From a virus: 31,468 bases of DNA. Both the position numbers and the translations under genes were made by a program. Location: IMG/VR virus record IMGVR_UViG_3300040806_002487, positions 1-31,468 of that record, one strand, 5' to 3'. Position 1 is the first letter of the stretch; each line of letters opens with the position of its first letter. This document shows positions 1 to 24,814 of this stretch, in pieces. The notes below the pieces were generated by a model. The model was not told the DNA's origin. It saw only the letters and a list, made by a program, of their open reading frames with translations, and ran no database searches.

Positions 1-359
1 ACGATAAAATTGTTGGCATAAGTGGTTTACACGAATTTAAAGATGGTTATAGAGCTTTATATCGTGGTGCACAGCTATATTCAAGACCTGGTGGATTAAC
101 TCGTAATCATATGAATTGTTGGATGTTTTATTACCATCTTCCAATAGCTATTGATTTAGTTAATGGAGAACCAATTTATATCACGACCAATACTGATAAT
201 GATGCAAGCGGAAGCATGTTAAGATTAAATAAGTTATACTATATACTCGAAAAGAATGGTCTTGTTGAGCATATAAGTAATGAAGAAGTATTTGGCGTTA
301 ACCAAAATATATGGAAATTAAATAAAGAAAGATATCTTGAAGTAAGAGGTGAAGAATGA
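1..359 (+). CDS. GNAT-like acyltransferase, C-terminal fragment
   Basis: The reading frame is open from the left edge (first full codon at 3) to the TGA at 357-359, so only the C-terminal 118 or so residues are present. The fragment starts in a beta-strand-like VGISGLHEF, then a basic stretch (RALYRGAQLYSRPGG), and ends with TNTDNDASGSML and a final strand. This resembles the C-terminal half of GNAT-type N-acyltransferases, but no acetyl-CoA loop can be checked because the N-terminus is missing. Its stop overlaps the next start as ATGA (356-359), so it is translationally coupled to the halogenase-like gene and probably part of the same operon. The coding call is firm; the family call is tentative. 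Confidence 0.6.
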   Translation, partial: DKIVGISGLHEFKDGYRALYRGAQLYSRPGGLTRNHMNCWMFYYHLPIAIDLVNGEPIYITTNTDNDASGSMLRLNKLYYILEKNGLVEHISNEEVFGVNQNIWKLNKERYLEVRGEE

Positions 360-1525
360 AGATTGCAGTACTAGGAGCAGGAAGCGCAGGCATACTAACA
401 ACAGGCTGTATTCTTAAAGATTTCAAAAACCGTGGGATTGATATTGAAATGACCCACGTTTTTGATCCAACCATTCCAATTCTTGGAGTAGGAGAAAGCA
501 CAACGTCAGAAGTAACTTTTGCGATTGGGCAAGCGTTTGACTTTATATTTGCCACAGAGGCTGAGGAATTAAATAGCACAACAAAATATGGTACACACTA
601 TATTGATTGGCGTGAAAAGGACATTATCTTTCCATTTCAAACTGGTTATCATGCCGTTCATTTTGATGCTCGTGACTTTGCAAAAATGGGATTGGATAGA
701 TTAAAAAAATTATATCCAAACTATACTTTATTGGAAGGTACAGTTGGTGAGCAACCTATGTGGGATCATTCTGGAGTAGCACTTACAATCAATAAAGAAC
801 TAAATGTTTTTGACTATGTGATTGATTGCCGTGGCAGACCTGAAGACTTTACTGATTATAAAGAATGCAATTTAATTCTGAACTCTGCGTTAGTATACGA
901 CGATCCTGAGCCATCTGATTTTGGATTTACAAGACACGTTGCTCATAAATATGGGTGGATGTTTGTGATTCCGTTACAGCATCGCACCTCGCACGGATTA
1001 CTGTATAACAACAATTTTGCCGATAAGCAAATGGCAATTGAAGAGCTTATTCGTATTACGAATGCAACCGAGGATGATATTGAGGACTTCAGAACATTTC
1101 CAATCAAACCATATTATTGTAAAAAGACAGTCAATGGGCGTATGCTCAAGAATGGTAATCGTGCGGTATTCTTCGAGCCTATGAGTGCTAACTCACTTTA
1201 TATGGCTGTTAAAAATACTCAGATTTTGTCGGATTACATTAGAGGCGAAATTAATGAAGATGAAGCAAACGAGTTGTGCATATTAAATTACCGCGCAGTT
1301 GAAGATCTTATTAACTTAATTTATCACGGCGGTTCTATTTACGAAAATGCGTTTTGGGATTGGGCAAAAGACCGAGCCTCAAATAATTTAAAAGAAACCG
1401 ACGTATTGCAAAGATATGTAGCAGATCAGGAAGATCAGATGTTTAAAACAATAACCGAAAGATTTATGGGACATCACGTATTACGATACGTAGACCGTGA
1501 GTTTGGTTTTAATTACTTTGGGTGA
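356..1525 (+). CDS. Flavin-dependent (tryptophan-type) halogenase-like protein
   Basis: A 389-aa protein with an N-terminal Rossmann FAD motif GAGSAG (residues 7-12), followed by GVGEST (44-49), which is typical of FADH2-dependent tryptophan halogenases. Lys77 in STTKYGTHYIDW sits where the catalytic lysine of PrnA and RebH (Lys79) is found. WMFVIPLQHR (201-210) matches the WxWxIP halogenase signature with Phe for the second Trp, and FFEPMSANSLYMA (272-284) fits the later FEP flavin/substrate segment. Family members usually have about 500-540 residues, so the C-terminal substrate region is short. Such enzymes use a flavin reductase, chloride, bromide or iodide and O2 to make HOX. The cyanophage enzyme VirX1 shows that phage halogenases can be active. 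The gene overlaps its upstream neighbour by ATGA and is followed after 3 nt by the AMP-ligase gene. The substrate is unknown, and a non-halogenating monooxygenase is the alternative. Confidence 0.85.
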   Translation: MKIAVLGAGSAGILTTGCILKDFKNRGIDIEMTHVFDPTIPILGVGESTTSEVTFAIGQAFDFIFATEAEELNSTTKYGTHYIDWREKDIIFPFQTGYHAVHFDARDFAKMGLDRLKKLYPNYTLLEGTVGEQPMWDHSGVALTINKELNVFDYVIDCRGRPEDFTDYKECNLILNSALVYDDPEPSDFGFTRHVAHKYGWMFVIPLQHRTSHGLLYNNNFADKQMAIEELIRITNATEDDIEDFRTFPIKPYYCKKTVNGRMLKNGNRAVFFEPMSANSLYMAVKNTQILSDYIRGEINEDEANELCILNYRAVEDLINLIYHGGSIYENAFWDWAKDRASNNLKETDVLQRYVADQEDQMFKTITERFMGHHVLRYVDREFGFNYFG

Positions 1526-1528
1526 TAC

Positions 1529-2299
1529 ATGCCGCTAAGAACTTGGTACGATAATTATGATGAGGATTATTTCCGTGATGCTGCTGAGAAAGGCATTATA
1601 ATTAAAACAAGCGGTTCATCTGGAGAACCAAAGGAAATATTTCAACCTCCGTATAAATCAATATCAAATTCTCACGCTGCTATTGAGACACAAGGTATTA
1701 CTGGCGATTCAGTAATCTATACTTGTTTGAATCCACAAAGAGCAGGTGCGTTGTTTGCTCAAACAATTCCAGGCTTAATGGTCGGAGCAACTATTGACCT
1801 TGAAAAATTTAATCCATATCGCTATGTGCAGATAGCCCATAAATATACACATACGCACTTAACACCAAAGCAAGCGTTAGCTGTGATGAAAACAAAAGGT
1901 TTTAAAGATCTTAATTTAAAAGATAAAGTATTTTTAGTTGGATCTGAACCAGTTACGTGGGATATAATTGAAGCGTTTGTAGAACGTGGAGCTACTGTAA
2001 TTACTATTTGGGGAATGACTGAAATTGGAGTAAATGCAATATTACACAAATTTCGAAGTGTGTTCGATGTAATTGCAGCAAAAACAAAATGCCCTTCAAA
2101 TTCTACTATTCTTGGAAATATATTCCATTGCGAATGGAAAGTAGATGAAAACAATTGTCTTTGGGTAAAAGGTGATTCTTGTGTGTATGAGGATTGGTTC
2201 AATACAAAGGATCAAGTTGTTGTTGACTATTTTGGATGCCTTTGGTATACTGGCCGCGCCGGCACTCCTGTAGATTTTAGTAATCCAAGAAAAGGTTAA
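1529..2299 (+). CDS. Truncated AMP-forming ligase (adenylation domain core)
   Basis: This 256-aa protein carries the core motifs of ANL adenylating enzymes: A3 P-loop TSGSSGEPK at 27-35, a GSEP segment at 138-141, A5 WGMTEIG at 161-167, and an A7/A8-like end (WFNTKDQ near 223-229 and YTGR at 240-243). The family normally has 500 or more residues. Here the N-terminal subdomain before A3 is missing, and so is the mobile C-terminal domain with the A10 lysine. It could adenylate a carboxylate weakly, need a partner for the second half-reaction, or have another role. No carrier protein is visible nearby. It lies 3 nt after the halogenase-like gene and 1 nt before the radical SAM gene, which implies co-translation. 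There is no frameshift inside the ORF, so this looks like a compact form rather than decay. Confidence 0.8.
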   Translation: MPLRTWYDNYDEDYFRDAAEKGIIIKTSGSSGEPKEIFQPPYKSISNSHAAIETQGITGDSVIYTCLNPQRAGALFAQTIPGLMVGATIDLEKFNPYRYVQIAHKYTHTHLTPKQALAVMKTKGFKDLNLKDKVFLVGSEPVTWDIIEAFVERGATVITIWGMTEIGVNAILHKFRSVFDVIAAKTKCPSNSTILGNIFHCEWKVDENNCLWVKGDSCVYEDWFNTKDQVVVDYFGCLWYTGRAGTPVDFSNPRKG

Positions 2300-2300
2300 A

Positions 2301-3818
2301 ATGAAAACATACGATATTATAATTATGACCGAAGGTAGCGATCCCGTGTTTAATGTAGCACGTGCTGTTGGCGGTTATAAGATTGCGTCTCATATGAGAA
2401 ACCTTGGATACAGTGTGTTTGTACTAAACAACTTTACTCATTGGATCAAAAAAGGTATGATAAACGAAGTCCTTGATAAATTGATGGGACCAAATACTTT
2501 ATGGGTTGGGTTTAGTTCAACTCTGTTTATGAGAAGGTCAGATGACGTCTATACCAAACGTCATACACGCGACGGTGCTCGAATGAATATTCTATGGCAC
2601 TGGCCAACTCAGGATGAAGATATTAAATCTATGACAGATCATATTCGTTCAAAAGGTGCTAAAACAGTATACGGTGGTATGATGGATACTCGTCGTAGAC
2701 CACAAGTTCAAGAATGTATTGATTATTATGTCGTTGGTATGGGTGAAGCAATGGCGGAGCATATTACCAACCATCTTGTAAACGATACAAAATTAAACTA
2801 TAATATTGCGTATGGATCTCAATGTAAAGTAATTGACTTTGACCAAAAGGGTAATCAGTTCGACTTCCGTAACTCATATATCAATTATGTTCCCGAGGAT
2901 TTTTGGAATCCGCAAGATGCAATGGGAATTGAGTTCGGACGCGGTTGTATATTTAAGTGCAAGTTTTGCGCCTATCCTTTGATTGGTAAACGTAAAGGCG
3001 ACGACTCGTTCTTACGAGAAAAGGAACGGATAAAGCACGAACTCAAACAAAATTACGATCTATACGGTACAACGAAATATGTTATTATTGATGATACGTT
3101 TAATGAGCAAACAGTTAAACTTCAAGCGATTGCTGATGCTATTGACGAATTGGCATTACCTGAACAATTACAGTTCTCGGCATTCATACGTATTGATTTA
3201 ATTGCTCGCTTTCCTGAGCAAATTGATTTATTAAGAAGAATTAATTGTTGTGCATGGTTCCTTGGTATTGAATCCTTGAACTATGAAGCGGCAAAAGGAA
3301 TTGGTAAAAGCTGTCCTAAAGAAAAGATCTTTGAAACAATTGCGGCAAGCAAAGAAGCCTTTAACGATTCACTAAGCGTATACGGTAGTTTTATTGCAGG
3401 TCTTCCGCACGATAACGAAGATACAATGAACGAATGGACTCAGGACTTATTTGCTCACAACCATTTGTTTGATTCGTATTCCTTTAGCCCGCTTGAACTT
3501 GGCACGGCGTCTGAGTTGTCTCGTAATGCCGAACAGTTTGGATATCAAGTTGATACTGCAACAAACCAATGGATCAGCGATGATTGGTCTAGTAAAGAAG
3601 CGGTTGAATACGTAAAGAACCTACAAGAAAACTTTATTGATGATATTAAGGTTGCAACGTTCTTCCTTATGTTTTATCAATGTTTAGGCTTTGAATTTGA
3701 AGAGCTTAGAAAAATGACGTTCACAGAATTGTTTATAGATCCAGCAATTAAAGAGCGTGCTCACGCCTATATGCAAAAAAATTATTATGATAAAGTAGAA
3801 AGATTTTTAGAATTATGA
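2301..3818 (+). CDS. B12-binding-like radical SAM enzyme
   Basis: A 505-aa protein. Residues about 1-165 form a Rossmann-like region (MKTYDIIIMTEGSDP at the start, YYVVGMGEAM at 142-151) resembling the cobalamin-binding domain of class B radical SAM enzymes. The radical SAM cluster motif CIFKCKFC has C216, C220 and C223 in CxxxCxxC spacing and would bind a [4Fe-4S] cluster and SAM. Further typical elements are VIIDDTFNE and FLGIES (strands beta3 and beta4 of the TIM barrel) and FIAGLPHD. No canonical DxHxxG cobalamin motif was seen in the N-terminal part, so cobalamin use is uncertain. The start is 1 nt after the AMP-ligase stop, and its stop overlaps the following oxygenase gene by ATGA (3815-3818). 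The reaction is unknown; methylation, or ring or C-C bond chemistry on the cluster product, are possibilities. Confidence 0.88.
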   Translation: MKTYDIIIMTEGSDPVFNVARAVGGYKIASHMRNLGYSVFVLNNFTHWIKKGMINEVLDKLMGPNTLWVGFSSTLFMRRSDDVYTKRHTRDGARMNILWHWPTQDEDIKSMTDHIRSKGAKTVYGGMMDTRRRPQVQECIDYYVVGMGEAMAEHITNHLVNDTKLNYNIAYGSQCKVIDFDQKGNQFDFRNSYINYVPEDFWNPQDAMGIEFGRGCIFKCKFCAYPLIGKRKGDDSFLREKERIKHELKQNYDLYGTTKYVIIDDTFNEQTVKLQAIADAIDELALPEQLQFSAFIRIDLIARFPEQIDLLRRINCCAWFLGIESLNYEAAKGIGKSCPKEKIFETIAASKEAFNDSLSVYGSFIAGLPHDNEDTMNEWTQDLFAHNHLFDSYSFSPLELGTASELSRNAEQFGYQVDTATNQWISDDWSSKEAVEYVKNLQENFIDDIKVATFFLMFYQCLGFEFEELRKMTFTELFIDPAIKERAHAYMQKNYYDKVERFLEL

Positions 3819-4399
3819 AATATTTTGAAAAAATACTATTACCACGATTTCACGGATTGTTAGATGAATTAAATATGCTAGAAGCTTCTGAAGAAGTTAC
3901 ATGGTTGCAACCATCGCATCCTTTAAGCTCAGCACAAATATGTTTAAACGCCGCGCCGGGTTATACACATGACGTAAATTTTGGTGCTGGTTATTTTGCC
4001 GATAAGGGTAATAGCGATTTCTTTATTCGACACACTCCTGAGGGTGATATCCGCATTCCAATGAAGCCAAGTAGTGTTTATGATTGGGAACTATGTGATG
4101 TCTTTGTTGATACTGGTTTTGATAATATCTTTAACACGCTTAAAACAAAATTTAATGTAGGAAGAGCACGACTTCTTAAATCAGCTCCTCGTACTTGCAT
4201 GAATTGGCATATAGATCCAATTCCAAGAGTTCATTATCCATTGCAAACTGCAGATGGTTGTTTAATGATTATTGAAGACGAATCATATCATCTTCCATTA
4301 GAACAATGGACTTTTGCGCATACTAACAAAGGTTACCATACTGCGCTAAATGCGAGTGATATAGAACGTATTCATTTTGTTGTAGATATATTGCCATGA
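3815..4399 (+). CDS. Aspartyl/asparaginyl beta-hydroxylase-like Fe(II)/2OG oxygenase
   Basis: A 194-aa protein whose C-terminal half matches the double-stranded beta-helix of the Asp/Asn beta-hydroxylase family. H132-x-D134 lies in NWHIDPIPRVHYPL, with R138 next to it. The distal histidine is H175 in YHTALNAS, and R185 in ERIHFVVD would bind the 2-oxoglutarate carboxylate. All ligands of the facial triad are therefore present. The size is close to single-domain bacterial members. Such enzymes hydroxylate free amino acids, peptides or small molecules using O2 and 2-oxoglutarate. The gene is coupled on both sides by 4-nt ATGA overlaps with the radical SAM gene and the next oxygenase gene. The substrate is unknown. 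Confidence 0.82.
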   Translation: MKYFEKILLPRFHGLLDELNMLEASEEVTWLQPSHPLSSAQICLNAAPGYTHDVNFGAGYFADKGNSDFFIRHTPEGDIRIPMKPSSVYDWELCDVFVDTGFDNIFNTLKTKFNVGRARLLKSAPRTCMNWHIDPIPRVHYPLQTADGCLMIIEDESYHLPLEQWTFAHTNKGYHTALNASDIERIHFVVDILP

Positions 4400-4905
4400 A
4401 TAAGTACTTAACCCATCTACCAGTTTCTGAATATGTTGTTGAAAAATTAATTAAAGAGTTTTATGATAATGTCCATAAGGCAAAAATATATACTGCATCA
4501 AATGGAGTTATAACAAGATCTCTTGATGAAATGGAAGTGATTCGTTTAGCAGATGCCGAAGATTGTGTATTAGCGCATAAGATAGCAAAAAACTTATCAT
4601 ATATGATTGCTGCAGAAGTAAAGCCAAGATATTATAGACAAGCAGCGGGATCAGATTTAAATAAACATAAAGATGTTGGCGCTACTATCGCACTTAATAT
4701 TGTATTAGAAGGTTCAGGCCCAATATGTTTTGATGACGACATATATATAAACTACAAATGCGCATTACTTGATGTAACGCAATATCACTCTGTAAAAACT
4801 GAAGACACTAGAGTTTTATTTAGACTTACTGCAAACGACATTTCATACGAAGAAGTTTTAGATTGCATTGAAGGTAAAGAACATGACATATTTGATATTA
4901 ATTAG
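4396..4905 (+). CDS. Second putative Fe(II)/2OG oxygenase
   Basis: A 169-aa protein with little overall resemblance to its upstream neighbour but a plausible double-stranded beta-helix iron site. H91-x-D93 is in LNKHKDVGATIALNIVL, H131 is in TQYHSVKTEDTR, and R139 or R143 is suitably placed after the distal histidine for 2-oxoglutarate binding. The pattern of alternating strands between the two motifs (ALNIVLEGSGPICF, CALLDVTQYHSV) supports the fold. It is coupled to the previous oxygenase by ATGA (4396-4399) and overlaps the start of the next small ORF. Product and substrate are unknown. The family call rests on the motifs alone. Confidence 0.68.
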   Translation: MNKYLTHLPVSEYVVEKLIKEFYDNVHKAKIYTASNGVITRSLDEMEVIRLADAEDCVLAHKIAKNLSYMIAAEVKPRYYRQAAGSDLNKHKDVGATIALNIVLEGSGPICFDDDIYINYKCALLDVTQYHSVKTEDTRVLFRLTANDISYEEVLDCIEGKEHDIFDIN

Positions 4906-5128
4906 TTTTGTGATAAAAGCATACGTACTCGAGAAAGAAAGAATTGCTAATCCATTAGGATGTATTGGTGGTGCTATAAATAGATGTAATATTGTTGAAA
5001 GATATGTGTTTTATTTTATGCCGTTTGTGAGCGATCTTTATCTTGTATTATTATTTCTTGAAAGAAAGTATTCAAGTGCATTCCCTGATATGAAATGGAA
5101 AGATCTCCAACCAGGGGTTTTATGGTAA
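4883..5128 (+). CDS. Small hydrophobic protein, function unknown
   Basis: An 81-aa ORF that starts inside the end of the preceding oxygenase gene. I chose ATG 4883 because AAGG at 4871-4874 lies about 8 nt upstream; a TTG at 4868 is an in-frame alternative. It has a hydrophobic N-terminus (TYLILISFVIKAYV) and a second hydrophobic stretch (YVFYFMPFVSDLYLVLLFL), so one or two membrane segments are likely. The stop at 5126-5128 abuts the methyltransferase ATG at 5129, which fits an operon gene. Overlap of 23 nt with a neighbour in another frame and lack of recognisable homology make this a moderate call. Confidence 0.55.
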   Translation: MTYLILISFVIKAYVLEKERIANPLGCIGGAINRCNIVERYVFYFMPFVSDLYLVLLFLERKYSSAFPDMKWKDLQPGVLW

Positions 5129-5878
5129 ATGAATCAATATGATATATTCAAACGAGTTAACACATTTAAAATATTTACTCAGTTTGTTGATTACAAAAAT
5201 GAAACGATATTAGACTTCGGTGGCAACAGGGGTAACCTTATTCACTTTAGTGATGGAAAAATCCTACCCGAAAAATATACCTCAATGGATGTTAGCAAAA
5301 ATGCTTTAAACGAATTGCTTGAAGAATTTCCAAATGCTAATACGATTTACTGGAATCGCCACCATCAAACATACAATCCTCAAGGAAATAAAAACGAACA
5401 GTTTCCAGGTTTCAATGGATTCCTTGGCGCTCTTACAATTAATTCTTTATCATATGACATGTCGTTCGCAAATAGTGTATTCACTCACATGGATCTAAGA
5501 GAAATACTGTTTTGTATCCGCGGTCTGCAAATAATATCAAACGAAATTAACTTTACTTATATAGATCCTGAAAACACTAGAATCTTTGAGGTATTACGTA
5601 AGAGGCATAACGCTATTGATTTGACTGATGAAGAAATAACCAATTTGTCAGACCACAATATCTCATATATATTAAATAGAAACAAAGTCGTTAACCAAGT
5701 CCAAGAACCTTACAAAGATATTTGGACTGTGATTAAAACTGATTTTCTAAAGGAGGCGATAATAAATAGTTCGCCATTTGCTATTTCAATTGAGAGCGGT
5801 ATGACAACTGGGTTCAATTGGATGAAAATAAAAGTCAGAGACCGCTTGCCTGCTAACGTGGGCATAATCGGATACTAA
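5129..5878 (+). CDS. Class I SAM-dependent methyltransferase
   Basis: A 249-aa protein with a class I methyltransferase core. Motif I is ILDFGGNRGN (residues 27-36), the acidic end of strand beta2 is YTSMDVSKNAL, and the motif IV region is DMSFANSVFTHMD, an arrangement typical of Methyltransf_11/25-type small-molecule methyltransferases. The start directly follows the previous stop, and it is the last gene of the tight plus-strand array that begins with the GNAT-like fragment. A role as tailoring methyltransferase for the cluster product is the simplest reading. A protein, lipid or RNA target cannot be excluded. Confidence 0.78.
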   Translation: MNQYDIFKRVNTFKIFTQFVDYKNETILDFGGNRGNLIHFSDGKILPEKYTSMDVSKNALNELLEEFPNANTIYWNRHHQTYNPQGNKNEQFPGFNGFLGALTINSLSYDMSFANSVFTHMDLREILFCIRGLQIISNEINFTYIDPENTRIFEVLRKRHNAIDLTDEEITNLSDHNISYILNRNKVVNQVQEPYKDIWTVIKTDFLKEAIINSSPFAISIESGMTTGFNWMKIKVRDRLPANVGIIGY

Positions 5879-5895
5879 AACAAAGGAGAAAATAT

Positions 5896-6114
5896 ATGAC
5901 TACATTAACTACACATTTACATAAAGAAGGTGCTGGCGGCGGATACTTCGGCCACATTAAGATTGGACTTAACATGGTCGTTTGGTCAGTCGCAGTATTT
6001 GTAACAAGCTCAATCCATGCCATTTTCCCATTTGCTTTAGAGAAAGCATCTATGAATGCGGCGAAGAAACTGGCGAGCTTGGTTGAGGAAACCTTCGCAC
6101 ACCACGAGGCTTGA
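5896..6114 (+). CDS. DUF6356-type small membrane protein A
   Basis: A 72-aa protein starting HLHKEGAGGGYFGHIKIG and running into one hydrophobic segment (about residues 28-50), then a charged helix. The pattern HLHE-x-YF-H, a membrane helix and HA-FPF is that of DUF6356 proteins found in phages and proteobacteria. A clear Shine-Dalgarno (AAAGGAG at 5882-5888) precedes the ATG. The next gene encodes a second, longer member, so this is a tandem paralogous pair. No biochemical role is known to me. Confidence 0.7.
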   Translation: MTTLTTHLHKEGAGGGYFGHIKIGLNMVVWSVAVFVTSSIHAIFPFALEKASMNAAKKLASLVEETFAHHEA

Positions 6115-6115
6115 T

Positions 6116-6400
6116 ATGAAATTTGGTAATTTGGGCAGATATGGGTATTTGATTAATACTGAGCATTTGCATGAAGTAAGGTCTGGGTATTTTCAGCATA
6201 TGTGGTTTGCTATAAAATTGAGCACATTTGGTTTAGTTAACGCAATCACTGGATATACCCACGCATTTTTACCGTTTCTGTTTCCTAACACTCCGCATAG
6301 AATTACGTTAAGGCAGGTTGAGCTCGCGGAAGAACTTATTGCTGAACTCAAAGGTGTAATTGAGAAAGAAGATGCGGAACGTGAAAAAAATATGAAATAA
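6116..6400 (+). CDS. DUF6356-type small membrane protein B
   Basis: A 94-aa protein containing TEHLHEVRSGYFQHMWFAIK and THAFLPFLFP, the two landmarks of DUF6356, separated by a hydrophobic helix, and ending in a charged coiled-coil-like tail (QVELAEELIAELKGVIEKED). The ATG at 6116 has GAGG at 6106-6109 upstream and begins 1 nt after the stop of the first paralogue; an upstream in-frame start would overlap that gene without a better ribosome site. It ends just before a strong promoter. Confidence 0.72.
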   Translation: MKFGNLGRYGYLINTEHLHEVRSGYFQHMWFAIKLSTFGLVNAITGYTHAFLPFLFPNTPHRITLRQVELAEELIAELKGVIEKEDAEREKNMK

Positions 6401-6424
6401 TTTCACAAAAACTGAAAAAAGTTG

Positions 6425-6453
6425 TTGACATTTGGTTTCAATCTTGTTAGAAT
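6425..6453 (+). promoter_or_regulatory. Sigma70-type promoter P1
   Basis: TTGACA at 6425-6430 and TAGAAT at 6448-6453 with a 17-nt spacer. The block just upstream (AACTGAAAAAAGTTG) and the leader after the -10 (ATATCAAATAGGAAA) recur almost unchanged at P2 (8124) and P3 (8936). It should drive the 117-aa gene and the following ketoacyl synthase, using host RNA polymerase, so early expression is likely. Confidence 0.85.
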
Positions 6454-6485
6454 AGATATATCAAATAGGAAAACAGGAATACATT

Positions 6486-6839
6486 ATGAAAATCGTTGTT
6501 GAACATCAGAACCTTAACGAAAAAACCGGCAACCTTGAAGGTTTCGCATCAGTTGCAGAAGTTAATGCTTCACATATCCATAACCTTGATGAGGCGCTTG
6601 AATATGCTTGGCGTTATACCAACAATGTTGATGGTTCTTGGTCAATGAAAATTGGCAGTGATGCGAATGATAATGTAACTGTATTAGCGGATCTCCCAGT
6701 GTCCAAGCGCACAGGCAATCCAATGGGCTTGCGTAGTTCAATGGTGGGAGACCGGTTTATTGTTGAAGATATCTTTGGCACTTCGGTCCACAAAGTTATG
6801 CCGTTTGGTTTTAAAAGAATTGATAGTGAGGTAGCATAA
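6486..6839 (+). CDS. Hypothetical protein (117 aa)
   Basis: A soluble 117-aa protein with no motif I recognise. It has an acidic, mixed alpha/beta composition, with KIVVEHQNLNEKTG at the start and a strand-rich C-terminus (VGDRFIVEDIFGTSVHKV). It is the first gene after promoter P1, with an AGGAAAACAGGAA purine-rich leader before the ATG. It ends 1 nt before the TTG start of the ketoacyl synthase gene, so the two are probably co-transcribed. Confidence 0.7.
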   Translation: MKIVVEHQNLNEKTGNLEGFASVAEVNASHIHNLDEALEYAWRYTNNVDGSWSMKIGSDANDNVTVLADLPVSKRTGNPMGLRSSMVGDRFIVEDIFGTSVHKVMPFGFKRIDSEVA

Positions 6840-6840
6840 T

Positions 6841-8064
6841 TTGAATAGAGTAGTCGTGACAGGGATGGGCATTCGCTCTCCCATCGGAAACGATCTTGAA
6901 ACTGTTACAAAAAACCTAAGAGAAGGCAACTCAGGAATTAAGTATAATTCTGACTATGCCGCTATAGGATTGAAATGTCATGTCTCAGGTAGTCTAGACT
7001 TTCATCCCGCCGATCTTGTACATCCAAAAGATTATAGATGGATGGGTCCTACTGCGGCATTAGGTTACTTATCTTGTGTATCAGCAATTGAAGACGCTGG
7101 GTTAAAACCTAATGAAGTAAGTAATCCTGACACTGGGTGTTACTTTGGATCTGGTGCAGCATCTCCTGATTGGCAGCAACATGCTGAAGACGTAGTTGTT
7201 CGTAAAGGTCCTGCGCGGGATCCTACCATTGTATTTAAAACAATGAACTCAACAACGTCAGCAAATATTACTAAGGCACTGAGAATTTATGGCGAAGGAT
7301 TTACCATTTCTTCAGCGTGTTCTTCAAGTCTTCATTGCATCGGAGAAGCATACCGAACAATTGCTCACGGTTATCAAAAGCGAATGATTGTAGGTGGTTC
7401 TGATAACGATCATTATGCAATGGTTGGTATGCTTGACGCATTGCGTGCGCTTTCTTCAAAATACAACGATAACCCATCAAAAGCATCTCGGGCATATGAT
7501 AAAGACCGTGATGGATTTGTTGTAGGAGAAGGTAGTGGTGCTTTAATCCTTGAGGATTATGATACTGCAATTGCTCGTGGTGCAAAGATTTACGCTGAGA
7601 TTGCAGGATATGGTGCTACGTCAGATGGATACGATATGGCTCATCCTTCAGGAGAAGGTGCAGTTCGATGTATGAGTAATGCTATGAGCGATGCTCGACG
7701 TAAAGGTTATACTAAATTGCCTGACTATATGAATGCCCATGGAACATCAACTCCAGTGGGCGATATAACTGAATTGAACGCTATTAAAGCGGCATTCCAC
7801 GGCGCTGATATACCGCCAATAAGCTCAACTAAATCGTTGACAGGACACGGTTTGGGTTCTGCGGGGGTTTGGGAGTCAATTTTCTCTATTTTGATGATGA
7901 ATCAAAGCTTCATTGCAGGATCGGCAAACATTGACGAAATCGACCCACGCGCCGCGGAGTTCCCTATTGCCCGCGAATCATTTGATGCCGAACTAGACTC
8001 GGTTATAACGAATTCCTTTGGATTTGGAGGAGCTAACGCAACTGTTATCTACAAAAAAGTCTAA
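6841..8064 (+). CDS. Beta-ketoacyl-ACP synthase (FabB/FabF family)
   Basis: A 407-aa protein covering the entire ketoacyl synthase fold, starting with VVVTGMGIRSPIG. The nucleophile C160 lies in SSACSSSLHCIG, and the catalytic histidines are H300 (NAHGTSTPVGD) and H336 (KSLTGHGLG), with K331. NSFGFGGANA closes the thiolase fold. All catalytic residues of decarboxylating Claisen condensation are present, and length and spacing are closest to E. coli FabB (406 aa). The start is TTG at 6841, because the family normally begins at this point (xRVVVTGMG); GAGG lies upstream at 6827-6830. It lies downstream of promoter P1 and a 117-aa gene. No acyl carrier protein or malonyl transferase was found in the window, so it would have to use host ACP. 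A role in altering host fatty-acid synthesis or in making a specialised acyl chain is possible. Confidence 0.95.
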   Translation: MNRVVVTGMGIRSPIGNDLETVTKNLREGNSGIKYNSDYAAIGLKCHVSGSLDFHPADLVHPKDYRWMGPTAALGYLSCVSAIEDAGLKPNEVSNPDTGCYFGSGAASPDWQQHAEDVVVRKGPARDPTIVFKTMNSTTSANITKALRIYGEGFTISSACSSSLHCIGEAYRTIAHGYQKRMIVGGSDNDHYAMVGMLDALRALSSKYNDNPSKASRAYDKDRDGFVVGEGSGALILEDYDTAIARGAKIYAEIAGYGATSDGYDMAHPSGEGAVRCMSNAMSDARRKGYTKLPDYMNAHGTSTPVGDITELNAIKAAFHGADIPPISSTKSLTGHGLGSAGVWESIFSILMMNQSFIAGSANIDEIDPRAAEFPIARESFDAELDSVITNSFGFGGANATVIYKKV

Positions 8065-19204: not shown

Positions 19205-19867
19205 ATGCATTTCTCTGAACAAACTCTTACAATTTTGAAGAGTTTCTCCCAAATCAACAAATCTATTCTGATGTCTGAAGGTAATGTCCTAAAGACTATT
19301 ACTCCCGAGAAAACTCTCGTGGCATCAGCAACAATCCCAGATCAAATCCCTGGTAATGCTTGTGTGTATGATTTATCAAGATTTTTGTCAATTTTGTCTC
19401 TCCACAACAATCCAGACGTGGAATTCGGAGATAAATATTTCGTGATTACCGAAGGTAAGCGACGTACTAAGTACGCTTTTGCAGACGTTTCCATGATCCA
19501 TACACCACCGGATAAGGAGATTACGATTCCTTCTGCGGATGTGCAGGTGAATGTGACTTGGGACGACTTGCAGTCTGTTTTAAAAGCAGCAGGTGTACTT
19601 CAGTTTACTGAAATTGCGTTCGTTGGTCAGGATGGGAAAGTCTTTCTCAAAGCTGTAGATACATCATCGTCTAACGCTGATGATTATGGTATTGAGATTG
19701 GCGAAACTGCTGATGAGTTTTCAATTGTTATCAAGACTGATAACTTGAAGCTTCTCCCGCAGGATTATCAGGTTACTCTTTGCGCGAAGGGTATCTCTGA
19801 GTTTAAAGGTGATAGTGCGAAATACTTCGTTGCTATTGATACAAAGTCGACTTATAAGAAAGGATAA
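19205..19867 (+). CDS. 45: DNA polymerase sliding clamp (gp45)
   Basis: A 220-aa protein of the T4 gp45 family (T4: 228 aa). Conserved features are the N-terminal LSxxTLxILKxFxxIN pattern, VYDLSRFLSILSL, the central DDLQSVLKAAGVLQ, and the C-terminal KLLPQDYQVTLCAKG and KYFVAIDTKST. It forms a trimeric ring that tethers the polymerase and, in T4, also activates late transcription with gp33 and gp55, which fits the TATAAATA promoters in this window. AAAGGAG at 19189-19195 precedes the ATG. It is followed by a 91-aa gene and then the clamp loader genes. Confidence 0.95.
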   Translation: MHFSEQTLTILKSFSQINKSILMSEGNVLKTITPEKTLVASATIPDQIPGNACVYDLSRFLSILSLHNNPDVEFGDKYFVITEGKRRTKYAFADVSMIHTPPDKEITIPSADVQVNVTWDDLQSVLKAAGVLQFTEIAFVGQDGKVFLKAVDTSSSNADDYGIEIGETADEFSIVIKTDNLKLLPQDYQVTLCAKGISEFKGDSAKYFVAIDTKSTYKKG

Positions 19868-19873
19868 TTATCC

Positions 19874-20149
19874 ATGAATGAAGAAAATCAAAACCAAGAG
19901 CAGCAAGAACCAGTTCAGCTGTCTCTTAATGATATTGCAACTTTCGTACAGATTGTAGATATCGCTTCCCGCCGCGGTGCCTTTGAGGGCCGTGAACTTC
20001 AAGGTGTTGGTACCCTACGTAATAAAGTAGAGGTATTCCTTAATCAGCAGGCTGAGGCACAAGGCCAGTCTGCTCAAGGTCAAATGGCACCAGCTGACGT
20101 TCCTGCCGACGCACCAATGGCTGATAAGGTTGTTGAAAAAGTTAACTAG
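19874..20149 (+). CDS. Conserved hypothetical protein downstream of gp45 (91 aa)
   Basis: A 91-aa protein with an acidic Gln/Glu-rich N-terminus (NEENQNQEQQEP), a central helical region (LNDIATFVQIVDIASRRGAFEGREL) and an Ala/Gln/Pro-rich low-complexity tail. The gene starts 6 nt after the gp45 stop. No catalytic motif is visible. The central part resembles small proteins found next to the clamp gene in other T4-like phages, but no function is known to me. Confidence 0.72.
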   Translation: MNEENQNQEQQEPVQLSLNDIATFVQIVDIASRRGAFEGRELQGVGTLRNKVEVFLNQQAEAQGQSAQGQMAPADVPADAPMADKVVEKVN

Positions 20150-20201
20150 GCGCTACCTAGGACCGAACGATGCGGGCTCTCGTTGCTAAATTAAACCCGC
20201 A
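20146..20201 (+). promoter_or_regulatory. Structured leader with alternative hairpins before gp44
   Basis: The 82-nt gap before gp44 can fold in several ways. CTAGG (20146-20150) pairs with CCTAG (20156-20160). TGCGGG (20171-20176) pairs with CCCGCA (20196-20201) around a 19-nt loop and is followed by TTATTTTAT. AACGA (20166-20170) pairs with TCGTT (20180-20184), and that helix encloses TGCGGG. The last two helices interlock, so forming one would hinder the other. It may be an attenuator, a translational control site or a terminator. There is no clean uridine tract, so termination is uncertain. Confidence 0.4.
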
Positions 20202-20231
20202 CTTATTTTATATTATGAAAATGGTGAATAC

Positions 20232-21182
20232 ATGCTTGATGCAAAATCAAATGAAGTACTATACGTTGAAAAGTACCGTCCTCAAAAAATTGATGACACA
20301 ATTCTCCCAGAAAAAACAAAAACAATGTTTAAGAAGTTTGTTGCTGACGACAGCATTCCAAACTTGTTACTTACAGGTGGTCCAGGCGTAGGTAAGACCA
20401 CAATCGCAAAAGCAATGCTCGAAGAGATGGGCTGCGATTATAAAATTATGAACGGATCTTTGAATGTTAACATTGATTCCATTCGTTACGATATCTCAAC
20501 CTACGCATCTTCAGTCTCATTACAAGGTGGCCGAAAATACGTTATCTTTGATGAAGCTGATTATCTAAATGCCGCAAACGTTCAGCCTGCTTTACGTAAC
20601 TTTATTGAAGAATACTCTTCAAACTGTGGCTTTATCTTTACTTGTAACTTTAAGAATCGTATCATTGCTCCATTACGTTCGCGACTGTCAGAAGTTGACT
20701 TCACGATTGAGCAACAGGATCGCCCAAAGATGGCGGCAGCATTCTATAAACGAGTTCGTGCAATCCTAGACCAAGAAAACGTTGAATACGATGCTAAGGT
20801 TGTTGCTAAAGTAATTGAAAAGCACTTCCCTGATTTCCGACGTGTACTTACTGAACTGCAATCTTATGCAGCATCAGGTCGTATTGATGAAGGTATCTTT
20901 GTTAACCTGAAGCAAGAAAGCGTTGACGAACTGTTTCGTTTGTTGAAATCAAAAGATTTTACTAATATGCGCAAATGGGTTGCAAAGAATTCAGATCAAG
21001 ATATGAATGAGTTGTTCCGTCGTATCTATGATATGTCAACTGATACGGTTGAACTCAGATCCCAACCAGGATTTGTTGTAACTCTTGCAGACTATATGTA
21101 CAAAGCAAACTTTGTTGCTGACCTTGAGGTTAACATGGTAGCTTTCCTTACAGAAGTTATGATGGAGGCAAGCTTTAAATGA
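20232..21182 (+). CDS. 44: Sliding clamp loader large subunit (gp44)
   Basis: A 316-aa AAA+ ATPase of the clamp-loader family (T4 gp44: 319 aa). It begins with the VEKYRPQKIDDTILP signature, then Walker A GGPGVGKTT (49-57), Walker B VIFDEADYL near 107, and the sensor 1 and arginine-finger regions FTCNFKNRI and PLRSR. It loads gp45 onto primer-template DNA together with gp62. The following small ORF starts at 21179, overlapping by ATGA. The ribosome site is weak (GGTGA), in keeping with the structured leader upstream and possible RegA control, as known for T4 gene 44. Confidence 0.96.
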   Translation: MLDAKSNEVLYVEKYRPQKIDDTILPEKTKTMFKKFVADDSIPNLLLTGGPGVGKTTIAKAMLEEMGCDYKIMNGSLNVNIDSIRYDISTYASSVSLQGGRKYVIFDEADYLNAANVQPALRNFIEEYSSNCGFIFTCNFKNRIIAPLRSRLSEVDFTIEQQDRPKMAAAFYKRVRAILDQENVEYDAKVVAKVIEKHFPDFRRVLTELQSYAASGRIDEGIFVNLKQESVDELFRLLKSKDFTNMRKWVAKNSDQDMNELFRRIYDMSTDTVELRSQPGFVVTLADYMYKANFVADLEVNMVAFLTEVMMEASFK

Positions 21183-21376
21183 GCAAATGGATGCAGAAAC
21201 TTATTAGTAGTCATACTTGTAGGTTTTGTGACAAGAAGCTTAATAAGAAAGAAATCTATACAGTAAGTATGGATACTCTTGAAGGCCCTCACACTATGGT
21301 GTTGTGTGAACTATGTGCCAAAGATTTTGATGATGTACTTAAAAATATTGAGGAAGCACGTAATGAGTCAATATAA
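21179..21376 (+). CDS. Small zinc-ribbon-like protein (65 aa)
   Basis: A 65-aa protein with two CxxC knuckles, CRFC and CELC, 29 residues apart, in a SHTCRFCDKKL...LCELCAKDF context, likely binding one zinc. The rest is charged and helical. The ATG is coupled to the gp44 stop by ATGA. Such small zinc proteins are frequent between T4-like replication genes; the target is unknown. Confidence 0.7.
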   Translation: MSKWMQKLISSHTCRFCDKKLNKKEIYTVSMDTLEGPHTMVLCELCAKDFDDVLKNIEEARNESI

Positions 21377-21680
21377 TCCTGATAAATGGTTGTTAATTAA
21401 AATTGGTGGAACTGATCCTCATTATAGAGTTTTCGGTTCTTGGTCTGGTGGCTATCTTGACGGCGATTCTTGGCGTATGAATAGCGGTATTACTCGCGTT
21501 GAAGAAGACGGCGATTACTATAAGTTCTTTGGATCTTCAGGTTCTTGTTACCGTTGCCATAAAGAAATGTATGGCGCAACAGCTTATGGATGGGGCGTTG
21601 CTACAGGATACATTGATGATGACCGGTTGACAATTATGGAAAAACCTGATAATATAATGGATATGGATTGGATCATATGA
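21363..21680 (+). CDS. Conserved phage hypothetical protein (105 aa)
   Basis: A 105-aa protein with the pattern WLLIKIGGTDPHYRVFGSW, GGYLDGDSWRMNSG and SGSCYRCHKEMYG. The repeated Gly/Trp/Tyr spacing recurs in phage hypothetical proteins I recall. I chose ATG 21363 because GAGG lies about 10 nt upstream; the longer in-frame extension to 21279 would lie within the zinc-protein gene. It overlaps that gene by 14 nt. No enzymatic motif is seen. Confidence 0.7.
   Translation: MSQYNPDKWLLIKIGGTDPHYRVFGSWSGGYLDGDSWRMNSGITRVEEDGDYYKFFGSSGSCYRCHKEMYGATAYGWGVATGYIDDDRLTIMEKPDNIMDMDWII
21627..21655 (+). promoter_or_regulatory. Candidate sigma70 promoter before the BPSL0761-like gene
   Basis: TTGACA at 21627-21632 and TAATAT at 21650-21655, spacer 17 nt, inside the 105-aa gene and 21 nt upstream of ATG 21677. 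A TATAAT at 21653-21658 is also present but with a 20-nt spacer. It could give extra transcripts of the gp62 and regA block. Confidence 0.5.
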
Positions 21681-21925
21681 CATTACCTATTGAAAGAACT
21701 AATGCAGTACTTAAAACTGAAAAGTTTTTACTTAAGCTTTGTATTCCAAAAGAATCTCCTCGTGTACCTAAGGAAATTCGTAAAGAAGCAGCAAGGCTTT
21801 TACGTCATTATCCATCTCAGTATAACATGCGTTATATTGCAGATAGCTTTGAAGAAATTAAAGATGAACGAGCTGATGCCTTAGATGAGTTAGCTAAATT
21901 AGGACAGGAAATGAACAATGGCTAA
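21677..21925 (+). CDS. BPSL0761-like small protein (82 aa)
   Basis: An 82-aa protein beginning MTLPIERTNAVLKTEKFLLKL with RKEAARLLRHYPSQYNM, matching the BPSL0761 family pattern (ERTRAL...FL, then A-LLRHYPS). The ATG overlaps the previous stop (ATGA at 21677-21680), and the stop overlaps the gp62 start by 8 nt. It is helical and probably soluble; its function is unknown. Confidence 0.72.
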   Translation: MTLPIERTNAVLKTEKFLLKLCIPKESPRVPKEIRKEAARLLRHYPSQYNMRYIADSFEEIKDERADALDELAKLGQEMNNG

Positions 21926-22313
21926 AGAGTATACCCCTTTTGACTTTATGAATGCCGTTTCATTTAGTAAACAAGATCTTATTGGTGATGCCGAAAATCC
22001 TGAAATGACTGAAAAGGAATTTATTCCTTATATGGTTAACCGTGGGTTTGCAAACTTTGAAGATACAATCTTGCATGCCAACGAAATGAATCAACGTGCC
22101 CATCTATTCAATCGTGCTCAGTTTGATTATTATCGTGGTGCTTTGCGTAAACGTAAACGCTTTTCTAAATGGCCAAAGGCCGATAAGAATAAAGACCTTG
22201 ACGCAATTCAACAGGTCTATTCTTGTAACCGCACCGTAGCTAAAATGTATTTAAAAGCATTGTCTGCGGATCAATTAAAACAAGTACATAGTAAGTTGTT
22301 CACAGGTGGCTAA
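21918..22313 (+). CDS. 62: Clamp loader small subunit (gp62)
   Basis: A 131-aa protein corresponding to T4 gp62 (187 aa), which forms the collar of the clamp loader with four gp44 copies. The family landmarks YMVNRGFANFEDTILHANEMN, QFDYYRGALRKRKRFSKW and the helical C-terminus are present. It is shorter than the T4 protein. It follows gp44 after three small genes, whereas T4 has gp62 directly before gp44, so the block has been rearranged. The start overlaps the previous stop by 8 nt. Confidence 0.88.
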   Translation: MAKEYTPFDFMNAVSFSKQDLIGDAENPEMTEKEFIPYMVNRGFANFEDTILHANEMNQRAHLFNRAQFDYYRGALRKRKRFSKWPKADKNKDLDAIQQVYSCNRTVAKMYLKALSADQLKQVHSKLFTGG

Positions 22314-22432
22314 GATCAGAATTTTAATAAATATTCTCTGATGGTCATGGTGGACATACAGCATGAAAATAATAACTATAAACAAAGGTGCTGCTTATTA
22401 TGCAAACTGAAGATATATTTAAAGGAGTCGGT

Positions 22433-22804
22433 GTGGAGATTAGATTACCAACGCCGGACAGTTTCTTAAAAGTAAAAGAAACTTTGACTCGTATTGGCAT
22501 TTCCTCTCGAAAGGAAAAGAAACTATACCAATCTTGTCATATTCTACACAAACAAGGAAAGTACTCAATTCTACACTTTAAAGAATTGTTTATCCTTGAC
22601 GGCAAAAACAATACTTTTACAGATGAAGATCGTGCACGACGTAATACGATTGTGAATCTACTTGAAGAGTGGGATTTAATTGAAGTTGTAGACCCTAACA
22701 AGTCGCAAGATCCAGTTGCTCCACTTAACCAAATCAAGATCCTATCACATAAAGAAAAAGGTAATTGGATTTTAGAGGCGAAATATAACATTGGAAAAAA
22801 GTGA
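22433..22804 (+). CDS. regA: RegA translational repressor
   Basis: A 123-aa homologue of T4 RegA (122 aa), with FLKVKETLTRIGI, LYQSCHIL and HFKEL near the N-terminus and a conserved LLEEWDLIEVV. RegA binds ribosome sites of early mRNAs and represses translation, including genes 44 and 45 in T4. I chose GTG 22433: AAAGGAG (22421-22427) lies 5 nt upstream, and translation from here gives MEIRLPTPDSFLKVKET, colinear with the T4 N-terminus. Longer in-frame starts at 22388 or 22400 lack such support and would add residues absent from T4. A 119-nt leader precedes the gene. Confidence 0.93.
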   Translation: MEIRLPTPDSFLKVKETLTRIGISSRKEKKLYQSCHILHKQGKYSILHFKELFILDGKNNTFTDEDRARRNTIVNLLEEWDLIEVVDPNKSQDPVAPLNQIKILSHKEKGNWILEAKYNIGKK

Positions 22805-22812
22805 GTTAAATT

Positions 22813-23325
22813 ATGAAAATCTACAAAGCGAACGAGAACGCTACGCTACCTGCGTACGCAACTGAAGGTTCGGCCTGCTTTGATATTAGAGCCTGCATTA
22901 AAGCAGGACAATACTTAAAAGCATATAATTCCTGGAACAAAGAACAAAAGCTTGTTGTTAAGGCAAGTGTCGGGCAAGATTCTAACGCGTTTCAATTACC
23001 ACCAGGAATTCGAGTTCTTGTTCCGACTGGATTGATTTTTGATATTCCAGAAGGCCAAGTTATGAAAATGTATATTCGCTCAAGCGTGGCTTTGAAAAAA
23101 GGTCTTGTTATGGCAAATGGCACAGGCATTATTGATTCTGATTATGTAGAAGAATCGTTTATGATGCTTCAGAATATTACCGATAGTTTAGTTACAATTG
23201 CAAACGGCGACCGTTTATCACAATGTATGTTGGTTCCTGTAGAACAGCATGAACTTGTAGAAACAACAGACCGTCCTGAACAAAAGACCGACCGTAATGG
23301 TGGTTTTGGATCTACAGGAAATTAA
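22813..23325 (+). CDS. dut: dUTP diphosphatase
   Basis: A 170-aa trimeric-type dUTPase with all five motifs: GSACFDIRA (1), YIRSSVALKKG (2), GIIDSDY (3), NGDRLSQ (4) and RNGGFGSTG (5). A roughly 20-residue insert lies between motifs 1 and 2 (AYNSWNKEQKLVV). The enzyme hydrolyses dUTP to dUMP, protecting DNA from uracil and feeding thymidylate synthesis alongside dCMP deaminase. It lies 8 nt after regA and is the last gene before a promoter and hairpin. Confidence 0.94.
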   Translation: MKIYKANENATLPAYATEGSACFDIRACIKAGQYLKAYNSWNKEQKLVVKASVGQDSNAFQLPPGIRVLVPTGLIFDIPEGQVMKMYIRSSVALKKGLVMANGTGIIDSDYVEESFMMLQNITDSLVTIANGDRLSQCMLVPVEQHELVETTDRPEQKTDRNGGFGSTGN

Positions 23326-23333
23326 AAAATTTA

Positions 23334-23364
23334 TTGACACGTTCATAGAACTGTGTTATAAATA
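23334..23364 (+). promoter_or_regulatory. Dual sigma70/late promoter for hsp20-AOX
   Basis: TTGACA at 23334-23339 and TATAAA at 23357-23362 with a 17-nt spacer form a host-type promoter. The same -10 is the exact T4 late motif TATAAATA (23357-23364). Both modes would start near 23369-23370. Confidence 0.7.
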
Positions 23365-23367
23365 ATA

Positions 23368-23396
23368 ATAGGAATGCCAAACGGGTTCCTATTTTT
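23368..23396 (+). terminator. Hairpin with T-tract at the promoter start site
   Basis: ATAGGAA (23368-23374) pairs with TTCCTAT (23386-23392) and is followed by TTTTT, an intrinsic-terminator shape. It could end the dut transcript. It begins at about +1 of the following promoter, so it also forms a 5-prime stem-loop on the hsp20-AOX mRNA. Confidence 0.55.
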
Positions 23397-23428
23397 AAAA
23401 TCTTGCTTAAACAAAAGGAGATAGCAAA

Positions 23429-23875
23429 ATGAATGCACGCAGAATTACTGCCGACCTATTAAATGACCCTTTCTTTATTGGTTTCGATCGCGTATTGGAT
23501 CGTATGCACCAACAAACTCCGGGTCAAACAAATTACCCTCCATACAACATCGTAAAAGTTAATGACGACAACTATCATATTGAGATTGCTGTCGCCGGAT
23601 TTACACGTGATGAATTGGATGTTGAATTGAAAGAAGGTGTTCTTTCAGTGGAAGGAAAAAAAGAAGACAAAGAGACAGATGGAAGTTATCTACATCGTGG
23701 AATTTCCGCTCGTCAATTCCGTCGTACCTTTACACTTTCAGACACAATTGTAGTTCGTGGTGCCGAGTTCCTTGACGGCATTCTTACAATTGAACTTGAG
23801 AACGTTATTCCCGAGGAAAAGAAACCACGTAAAATTGCCATTGGCAGCGAGGATAAAAAACTCCTTAAGGGATAA
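23429..23875 (+). CDS. Small heat-shock protein (Hsp20/IbpA family)
   Basis: A 148-aa protein with an alpha-crystallin domain: PYNIVKVNDDNYHIEIAVAGF, DVELKEGVLSVEGKK, an arginine-rich segment RGISARQFRRTFTL, and AEFLDGILTIELEN, which holds the conserved GxLxI segment. It is an ATP-independent holdase; marine T4-like phages often carry one, thought to help virion or host protein folding. AAAGGAG (23416-23422) precedes the ATG. It is followed after 51 nt by the alternative oxidase gene and probably shares its transcript. Confidence 0.93.
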   Translation: MNARRITADLLNDPFFIGFDRVLDRMHQQTPGQTNYPPYNIVKVNDDNYHIEIAVAGFTRDELDVELKEGVLSVEGKKEDKETDGSYLHRGISARQFRRTFTLSDTIVVRGAEFLDGILTIELENVIPEEKKPRKIAIGSEDKKLLKG

Positions 23876-23885
23876 ATAAAAAGCA

Positions 23886-23904
23886 GGAGGGTGAAAGCCC
23901 CTCC
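23886..23904 (+). other. Short mRNA hairpin between hsp20 and AOX
   Basis: GGAGGG (23886-23891) pairs with CCCTCC (23899-23904) around a 7-nt loop. No uridine tract follows, so read-through into the oxidase gene is likely. It also sequesters a GGAGGG that would otherwise act as a ribosome site for a GTG at 23891. Confidence 0.45.
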
Positions 23905-23926
23905 ACTTCTAAACCAAAGGATTCCA

Positions 23927-24520: not shown

Positions 24521-24585
24521 ATATTTGCAACCCATATGATATACATCCAGCCTGGATGAATCACACATACACAAAGGAGACTATT

Positions 24586-24813
24586 ATGTCTAACAAAAAC
24601 CCATTCGAAATTCGCTCAGATATGCTTCAATTGGCAAAAGAATATATGGATCAACAGTACCATATGAATATTTCTTTCGCTGAAAAAATGTTTGACGCTG
24701 GTAAAAAGTCAGCAGAAGAAATGCAAGCCGAATACAAAATGTATTCAATGGAAGATCTTATGGCAAAAGCCAAAGAGATGTATTCCTTCGTTTCTGATAA
24801 AGGCGACAAATAA
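24586..24813 (+). CDS. Conserved small phage protein (75 aa)
   Basis: A 75-aa acidic helical protein beginning MSNKNPFEIRSDMLQLAKEY, a type found in marine T4-like phages without known function. I chose ATG 24586 because AAAGGAGA (24573-24580) lies just upstream. An in-frame ATG at 24517 overlaps the oxidase stop (ATGA) and would add 23 residues of different composition. It is the last plus-strand gene before the convergent late operon, whose stop is 1 nt away. Confidence 0.75.
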   Translation: MSNKNPFEIRSDMLQLAKEYMDQQYHMNISFAEKMFDAGKKSAEEMQAEYKMYSMEDLMAKAKEMYSFVSDKGDK

Positions 24814-24814
24814 T

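Follow-up and report, generated by a model that had tools for sequence, protein, structure and literature searches.

A conserved operon of T4-like phages that probably builds or decorates a single compound

Results

A compact row of biosynthetic genes in a T4-like phage fragment

The window analyzed here is the IMG/VR virus record IMGVR_UViG_3300040806_002487, taken over its whole length (positions 1-31468). It opens within an operon (positions 1-5878, plus strand) with genes for a predicted GNAT-fold acyltransferase, a flavoprotein of the tryptophan-halogenase superfamily (HAL), the core of an ANL adenylating enzyme, a radical S-adenosylmethionine (SAM) enzyme, two 2-oxoglutarate (2OG)/Fe(II) oxygenases (OX1 and OX2), a small hydrophobic protein and a methyltransferase-like protein (Table 1). 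With the genes on either side they make up a conserved array of about ten genes, including eight enzyme genes, found in uncultured T4-like phages; it probably builds or decorates one compound during infection. The window covers part of a T4-like phage genome. Ten proteins encoded at 19205-31135 were tested, and nine of them matched PHROGs, namely those for the polymerase clamp, clamp loader, translation repressor, baseplate hub, tail tube, DNA end protector, head closure, tube cap and baseplate wedge, a T4-like set.

Table 1. Genes of the operon and its surroundings. Coordinates refer to the window unless a contig is named.
Feature	Position	Strand	Basis and remarks
GNAT-fold acyltransferase, C-terminal 118 aa	3..359	+	Structure model and fold match; cut by the window edge
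HAL, flavoprotein of the tryptophan-halogenase superfamily	356..1525	+	Pfam 5.4e-30; PHROG 2928 7.7e-63
ANL adenylating-enzyme core, 256 aa	1529..2299	+	Pfam AMP-binding 1.2e-12; PDB feruloyl-CoA synthetase 7.5e-8
Radical SAM enzyme, B12 type	2301..3818	+	Pfam Radical_SAM 6.8e-14; CxxxCxxC at 216/220/223
OX1, 2OG/Fe(II) oxygenase, Asp/Arg-hydroxylase type	3815..4399	+	Pfam Asp_Arg_Hydrox 1.5e-5; HxD...H...R conserved
OX2, 2OG/Fe(II) oxygenase, prolyl-hydroxylase-like fold	4396..4905	+	Structure model and PDB fold matches
Small hydrophobic protein	4868..5128	+	Open reading frame; possible ATG start at 4883; no Pfam match
SAM-dependent methyltransferase-like protein	5129..5878	+	Methyltransf_12 1.3e-4, below the Pfam cut-off; conserved DFGG-N-x-GNL region
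Small protein, 26% in alignment with the following DUF6356 protein	5896..6114	+	Alignment
DUF6356 protein	6116..6400	+	Pfam DUF6356 7e-10; start inferred from relatives (listed open reading frame 6056-6400)
FabB-type beta-ketoacyl-ACP synthase	6841..8064	+	NCBIfam 1.3e-148, below its cut-off
Cytochrome P450, 415 aa, outside the window	L002:6245-7492		Pfam 5.4e-12; upstream of the GNAT gene
Complete GNAT gene, 171 aa	L002:7489-8004		4-nt overlap with the P450 gene

All eight frames at 1-5878 are open on the plus strand, as the first-pass annotation of the window had read them. The families that it named are supported by Pfam (HAL, AMP-binding, Radical_SAM and OX1), by structure models (GNAT and OX2) or, for the methyltransferase, by the match below cut-off. 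It had described the genes as joined by gaps of 1-4 nt or by ATGA overlaps, which is correct for five of the seven junctions. Junctions were measured on contig IMGVR_UViG_3300040751_004487 (L002), which is 100% identical to the window genes and extends upstream: GNAT to HAL -4, HAL to ANL core +3, ANL core to radical SAM +1, and -4 both from radical SAM to OX1 and from OX1 to OX2. The two deviating junctions are that between OX2 and the hydrophobic protein, with a longer overlap (38 nt counted from a TTG start, 23 nt from the internal ATG at 4883), and that between the hydrophobic protein and the methyltransferase (0). The operon is also larger than first described. A P450 gene lies upstream and overlaps the GNAT gene by 4 nt in 8/8 contigs measured, and two DUF6356-type genes follow the methyltransferase gene.

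Gene order is conserved and the genes are under purifying selection

Pattern-based scans of IMG/VR, which detect close relatives, returned the halogenase-like gene in 15 contigs, the close radical SAM family in 19 and the P450 in 21. The cassette is present in all 19 P450 contigs long enough to test; the two extra ones (L133 and L144) stop before the remaining cassette region. After near-identical groups (L003/L014, L004/L005/L013, L011/L012 and L030/L034) were merged, the 19 contigs gave 14 distinct ones. Counts below are per distinct contig, and contigs "that reach" are those long enough to cover the gene in question.

The order P450, GNAT, ANL core, radical SAM enzyme was collinear in 14/14 contigs. 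Recurrence of the same gene set in the same order in related phages had been set beforehand as a test of a joint pathway, and the core order was indeed kept throughout. The HAL gene was found between the GNAT and ANL core genes in 11/14 contigs. Among contigs that reach, OX1 and OX2 were present in 12/13 (OX1 inverted in L030 and L033), the methyltransferase in 12/12, and the DUF6356 gene and a profile match for the small protein before it in 10/12 each.

Ratios of nonsynonymous to synonymous substitution (dN/dS, Nei-Gojobori, against L002) were 0.03-0.23 where measurable (partners L003, L006, L008, L009 and L033), and the other comparisons were saturated at synonymous sites. The operon genes are thus under purifying selection. 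In the comparison with L003, the proportion of synonymous differences (pS) was 0.41 for HAL and 0.38 for the ANL core (window 356-2299), against 0.66-0.75 for their neighbours, suggesting recent exchange of that segment.

The radical SAM enzyme and the 2OG oxygenases

The CxxxCxxC motif was present in all 13 radical SAM copies aligned. The enzyme is closest to NCBIfam families of the B12 type, with PhpK as the best match (1.6e-22). Since it scored 79.6 bits against a cut-off of 600, it is not a member of the PhpK family. A Pfam B12-binding match, below cut-off, was obtained for the L008 copy (5e-5) and was not reported for the window protein. In 8/12 contigs having both genes, the radical SAM enzyme and OX2 are fused into one open reading frame.

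The HxD...H...R residues of OX1 were invariant in 12/12 rows. OX2 had no match in Pfam or among PDB sequences, and its sole PHROG match was at 0.045. Its structure model (predicted local distance difference test, pLDDT, 89.0) matched prolyl hydroxylases and other 2OG oxygenases with Z up to 13.6 (root-mean-square deviation, rmsd, 2.8; 148 residues aligned), and by this model OX2 has a 2OG-oxygenase fold. Its HxD...H triad and the Arg are kept in the window and in 10 of the other 12 rows.

The number of viral stretches matched by a broader radical SAM profile was at least 422, so that the question extends well past one phage. Of these, 80 were kept and 61 were new (about 28-35% identical), all 61 with the CxxxCxxC motif. 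We examined 64 loci, the 61 new distant relatives plus L099, L119 and L122. A halogenase homolog was found in 7/64 and is the gene immediately before that for the radical SAM enzyme in three of them (L155, L197 and L205). An OX1-like gene was found in 9/64 and holds this position in six (L152, L156, L157, L158, L165 and L167), which merge to three at 80% identity. L155 and L197 also have, after the radical SAM gene, a 2OG-oxygenase-like gene just below cut-off. Such recurring partner pairs in distant phages are suggestive but no proof. We also note genes for amino acid:DNA transferases (ADDT) beside three distant radical SAM relatives (L154:6973-7989, L175:4953-5969 and L178:5862-6881).

Searches for the radical SAM enzyme beyond these contigs gave little. 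There was no match in phage records. A non-exhaustive scan of a species-genome collection gave 81 pattern matches and no relative; that it was not exhaustive is clear from L099, a contig of the same collection with a 30% relative that the scan missed. In 398 Pseudomonadota genomes there were 0 matches at E 1e-35, in a search without positive control. Plasmid matches (12 records; about 24-26% identity among the matches listed) were judged generic. No bacterial copy of the operon was found in these limited searches.

The active site of the halogenase-like flavoprotein is altered

HAL retains the GxGxxG flavin site (GAGSAG) and Lys77, the counterpart of PrnA Lys79, in 11/11 aligned copies. Other halogenase motifs are changed in the same 11 copies. 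WxWxIP reads WMFVIP (WxFxIP), and the position of PrnA Glu346, located through the PrnA E346D entry 2jkc, is Ser277. In place of the Fx.Px.Sx.G tunnel motif or its charged variant, HAL has FFEPMSANS, with F and P kept, S replaced by A and G by S; the register was fixed via the PrnA alignment, and motif definitions were taken from excerpts of PMC8407142. According to the same excerpts, some halogenases have variants of WxWxIP or lack it, and phenol halogenases lack the active-site Glu, so that HAL might still halogenate phenols.

Proteins of the cyanophages S-SSM5 and S-SSM7 are 34 and 33% identical to HAL; both have WMFGIP, with EPIEA and EPIQA, respectively. Of the seven halogenase homologs near distant radical SAM genes, five have WxWxIP and EPLEATS, and all seven have Glu at this position, which makes the Ser peculiar to the HAL group among the sequences compared. 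A search of phage records for halogenase-like proteins returned 55 records, all below 60% identity, the best-scoring at 35-36%. A halogenated product, which the first-pass annotation had named as one possibility, was therefore not borne out: the Glu position and the tunnel motif are changed in 11/11 copies, and 3/14 contigs lack the gene altogether. Judged from sequence, a product carrying halogen appears doubtful.

The P450 and the GNAT-fold protein

The closest PDB match of the P450 is the monooxygenase p450tol (2.2e-20). The ExxR residues (E293 and R296) and the heme-ligand Cys (C364, in AYGPHHCTG) were invariant in 14/14 aligned copies. The acid-alcohol pair of the I-helix is missing: AGHDTT of p450tol faces VVIPTF in one pairwise alignment, and Pro256 and Thr257 were invariant in 14/14. 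By analogy with CYP152, the P450 might be peroxide-driven. It matched no PHROG family, and phage records gave just two weak matches (23.5%) in unannotated records labelled Listeria phage.

Upstream of the P450, several contigs carry additional genes of radical SAM type, for example L002:1781-2929 (with a SPASM Pfam match) and L008:1139-2335 (recognized by eye). A 100-aa gene before the P450 (c11) was considered as the precursor of a ribosomally synthesized and post-translationally modified peptide and set aside, because it occurs in some contigs only.

No Pfam GNAT match was found in the 21 GNAT sequences scanned. The model (pLDDT 91.7) matched GNAT chains at Z 13.2 (rmsd 3.0, 153 residues aligned), indicating that the predicted product of the first window gene has a GNAT fold.

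The ANL core, the DUF6356 proteins and the methyltransferase

The ANL core spans positions 167-355 of the 384 of the AMP-binding profile. Motifs A3 and A5 are present in the 21 sequences aligned, and the N-terminal subdomain and the C-terminal domain, with the A10 lysine, are missing. With mechanically assigned starts the proteins are 223-267 aa long and end at the hinge region. Phage records gave one weak match only. Relatives were found at 49 loci of the genome collection, many in SAR11, SAR116, Methylophilaceae and gammaproteobacterial assemblies. A DUF6356 gene lay directly upstream of the core gene in 33/49. No locus had a GNAT gene within 2 kb (0/49); L099, L119 and L122 have one further away. 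In 22 phage contigs with the ANL core and without the cassette, DUF6356 was upstream in 8 and GNAT nearby in 8. By eye, DUF6356 proteins look like small membrane proteins.

Across L076-L123 we observed a two-gene unit of DUF6356 and a short ANL core (e.g., L091:7793-8678), in many cases from SAR11 and preceded by an SDR gene. Another type of island, phage-like in appearance (L099, L119 and L122), holds GNAT, a class IV aminotransferase, a GMP-reductase/IMPDH-like gene and the ANL core, as well as 2OG-oxygenase-like genes (by eye). DUF6356 is present in L099 and L122, and L099 also has radical SAM genes. Judged by eye, L099 resembles a phage contig placed in a bacterial assembly, and L119 and L122 may be further cases.

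The DFGG-N-x-GNL region of the methyltransferase was conserved in 12 rows. The hydrophobic protein has a clear relative in L006 (54%), and five others aligned at only 18-28%.

Discussion

According to the first-pass annotation, the genes are made together and likely act on one product. The compact cassette, the core order kept in 14/14 contigs and the purifying selection speak for this; halogenation is not supported. A shared pathway is well supported, and we consider it fairly likely that, in infected cells, this operon of a T4-like phage family produces or modifies one single product. Our best guess for this product is a small molecule or a lipid- or amino-acid-like conjugate, with the infected cell or its competitors as the target.

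From what is known of the families, a sequence of steps can be proposed for the row P450, GNAT, halogenase-like flavoenzyme (where present), ANL core, B12-type radical SAM enzyme, two 2OG oxygenases, small hydrophobic protein, methyltransferase and DUF6356. The ANL core would activate a carboxylate and the GNAT-fold protein would acylate an amine. The radical SAM enzyme might then install a methyl group or another carbon at an unactivated position, or catalyze a rearrangement, and the P450, the flavoenzyme and the 2OG oxygenases would oxidize the scaffold before a final methylation by the last enzyme. The small proteins may keep the chemistry or the product at the membrane, and the host would supply electrons, cobalamin and any carrier.

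Several observations weigh against a single pathway. The HAL gene is absent from L030, L033 and L035, both oxygenases are absent from L006, and the ANL protein is incomplete. The HxD of OX2 is lost in L004 and L016 (L004:6852-7346 and L016:11474-11962, where OX2 is part of the fusion). Most of the 64 distant loci show none of the partners described above, and the 147 distant neighbours scanned include 7 Radical_SAM, 5 2OG-family and 3 Trp_halogenase proteins next to 4 each of DnaB, SMC-type ATPase and fatty-acid desaturase. Carrier proteins (PP-binding) were found in 0/14 records (control positive in 11/14 genomes), and so were ferredoxins (Fer2) and flavodoxins (controls positive in 12 and 10 of 14 genomes, respectively). 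Since all 14 records (11 distinct) are fragments, the absence of carrier and redox partners is weak evidence. Contiguity itself can reflect a shared mobile block. Loss of active-site residues had been named in advance as a sign against a joint pathway; it was seen for some genes in some members (the HAL motifs, the incomplete ANL protein and OX2 of L004 and L016), and most motifs are kept.

A different role for the cassette would be modification of a glycan or lipid of the host surface or the virion, for example to block superinfection or to protect tail fibres. We regard this as unlikely, and grant it that much because a three-gene block is found close to the operon in 6/14 contigs: before it in L002, L003 and L006, and after it, inverted, in L007, L009 and L011. 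The block consists of c8 (methyltransferase-like, below cut-off), c12 (matching a glycosyltransferase PHROG in L002) and c14. c8 alone also occurs in L004 and L016. The membrane-protein-like appearance of DUF6356 and its place directly before the ANL core in genome-collection loci fit the same role. However, the block is missing near the operon in L008, L015, L030, L033 and L035 (partly short contigs) while the core stays, and glycans would be unusual substrates for P450 and halogenase-type enzymes. Somewhat less likely again is hypermodification of phage DNA, in which a base, or an amino acid on a base, would be decorated to evade host nucleases. The ADDT genes directly beside radical SAM genes in L154, L175 and L178 leave room for it; with another elsewhere on the L198 contig, ADDT occurs in 4/32 records. 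The window also holds genes for a thymidylate-synthase-family protein, a dCMP deaminase, a C5 cytosine methylase and a dATP/dGTP diphosphohydrolase-domain protein. Such nucleotide genes may, however, be ordinary for these phages, and none of the 14 P450-type records, all of them fragments, has ADDT. P450, halogenase-like and ANL enzymes are not known from any described DNA hypermodification pathway.

Finally, the genes could be host-derived auxiliary genes gathered in one variable slot and each acting alone. The halogenase genes of S-SSM5 and S-SSM7 stand without such neighbours, 22 phage contigs have the ANL core but not the cassette, and HAL and the oxygenases are missing from 3/14 and 1/13 contigs, respectively. 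Collinearity in 14/14, overlapping genes, the fusion and the recurring pairs in distant phages make this account very improbable, as does the finding of the P450 with the cassette only (19/19 testable contigs).

We tentatively entertain a phage-only pathway that evolved in T4-like phages without a bacterial counterpart. Its output would be a compound specific to infection, or a modification of surface or DNA that is chemically novel. It might combine a P450 with an altered I-helix, a B12-type radical SAM enzyme, a halogenase-derived flavoenzyme with new chemistry, and a carrier-free ANL core acting with the GNAT-fold protein.

Related systems are known for several components. The viral halogenase VirX1 of cyanophage Syn10 and cyanophage tryptophan halogenases have been described (excerpts of PMC8407142 and PMC10452541; table in PMC3037559). 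HAL is of the same superfamily, likewise phage-borne, and keeps the catalytic lysine (PMC8407142, excerpts). Unlike them it has a changed Glu position and tunnel motif, and its identity to the best-scoring phage records is 35-36%. It also belongs to an operon, which is not the case for the genes of S-SSM5 and S-SSM7. P450s are known from giant viruses and Mycobacterium phage Adler (PMC9405906, in part); here the P450 is also part of a viral genome but heads a conserved operon. Phage biosynthetic gene clusters have been described as rare and as found mostly in temperate phages (Dragos et al., 2021, as cited in excerpts of PMC10452541). The present operon resembles them in bringing several biosynthetic genes together in a phage, but it belongs to T4-like phages and we identified no scaffold synthase. 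The B12 radical SAM P-methyltransferases of the PhpK type are the nearest family of the radical SAM enzyme, yet do not include it. The ANL core shares A3 and A5 with acyl-CoA synthetases and adenylation domains, but differs from them by its missing subdomain and domain and by the pairing of its short relatives in genome assemblies with DUF6356. Among the papers that the literature searches listed, none reports a phage operon with such a set of genes. We class the operon with the biosynthetic or auxiliary metabolic genes carried by phages, as a variant of these, and see a real chance of a phage-only pathway.

If the genes form one pathway, T4-like phages do more than boost host metabolism and have an elaborate chemistry of their own, both oxidative and radical. 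Their output would be natural-product-like, and the orphan "halogenase" genes of many phages would gain a context. The pathway would then comprise unusual enzymes, namely a phage P450 that lacks the acid normally present in the I-helix, a fusion of radical SAM enzyme and 2OG oxygenase, and an enzyme of halogenase fold whose active site is rebuilt.

Neighbouring genes

The FabB-like gene downstream of the DUF6356 gene was present in 2/12 contigs that reach, and is therefore probably not core to the operon. It matched 133/398 Pseudomonadota genomes at E 1e-110, with a best identity of 53%. A nucleotide search of window positions 1-7990 against phage records returned four unannotated "Listeria phage" records, all at 7493-7627 within this gene. 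Farther along, the window carries an alternative oxidase gene (23891-24520; Pfam AOX 1.1e-77).

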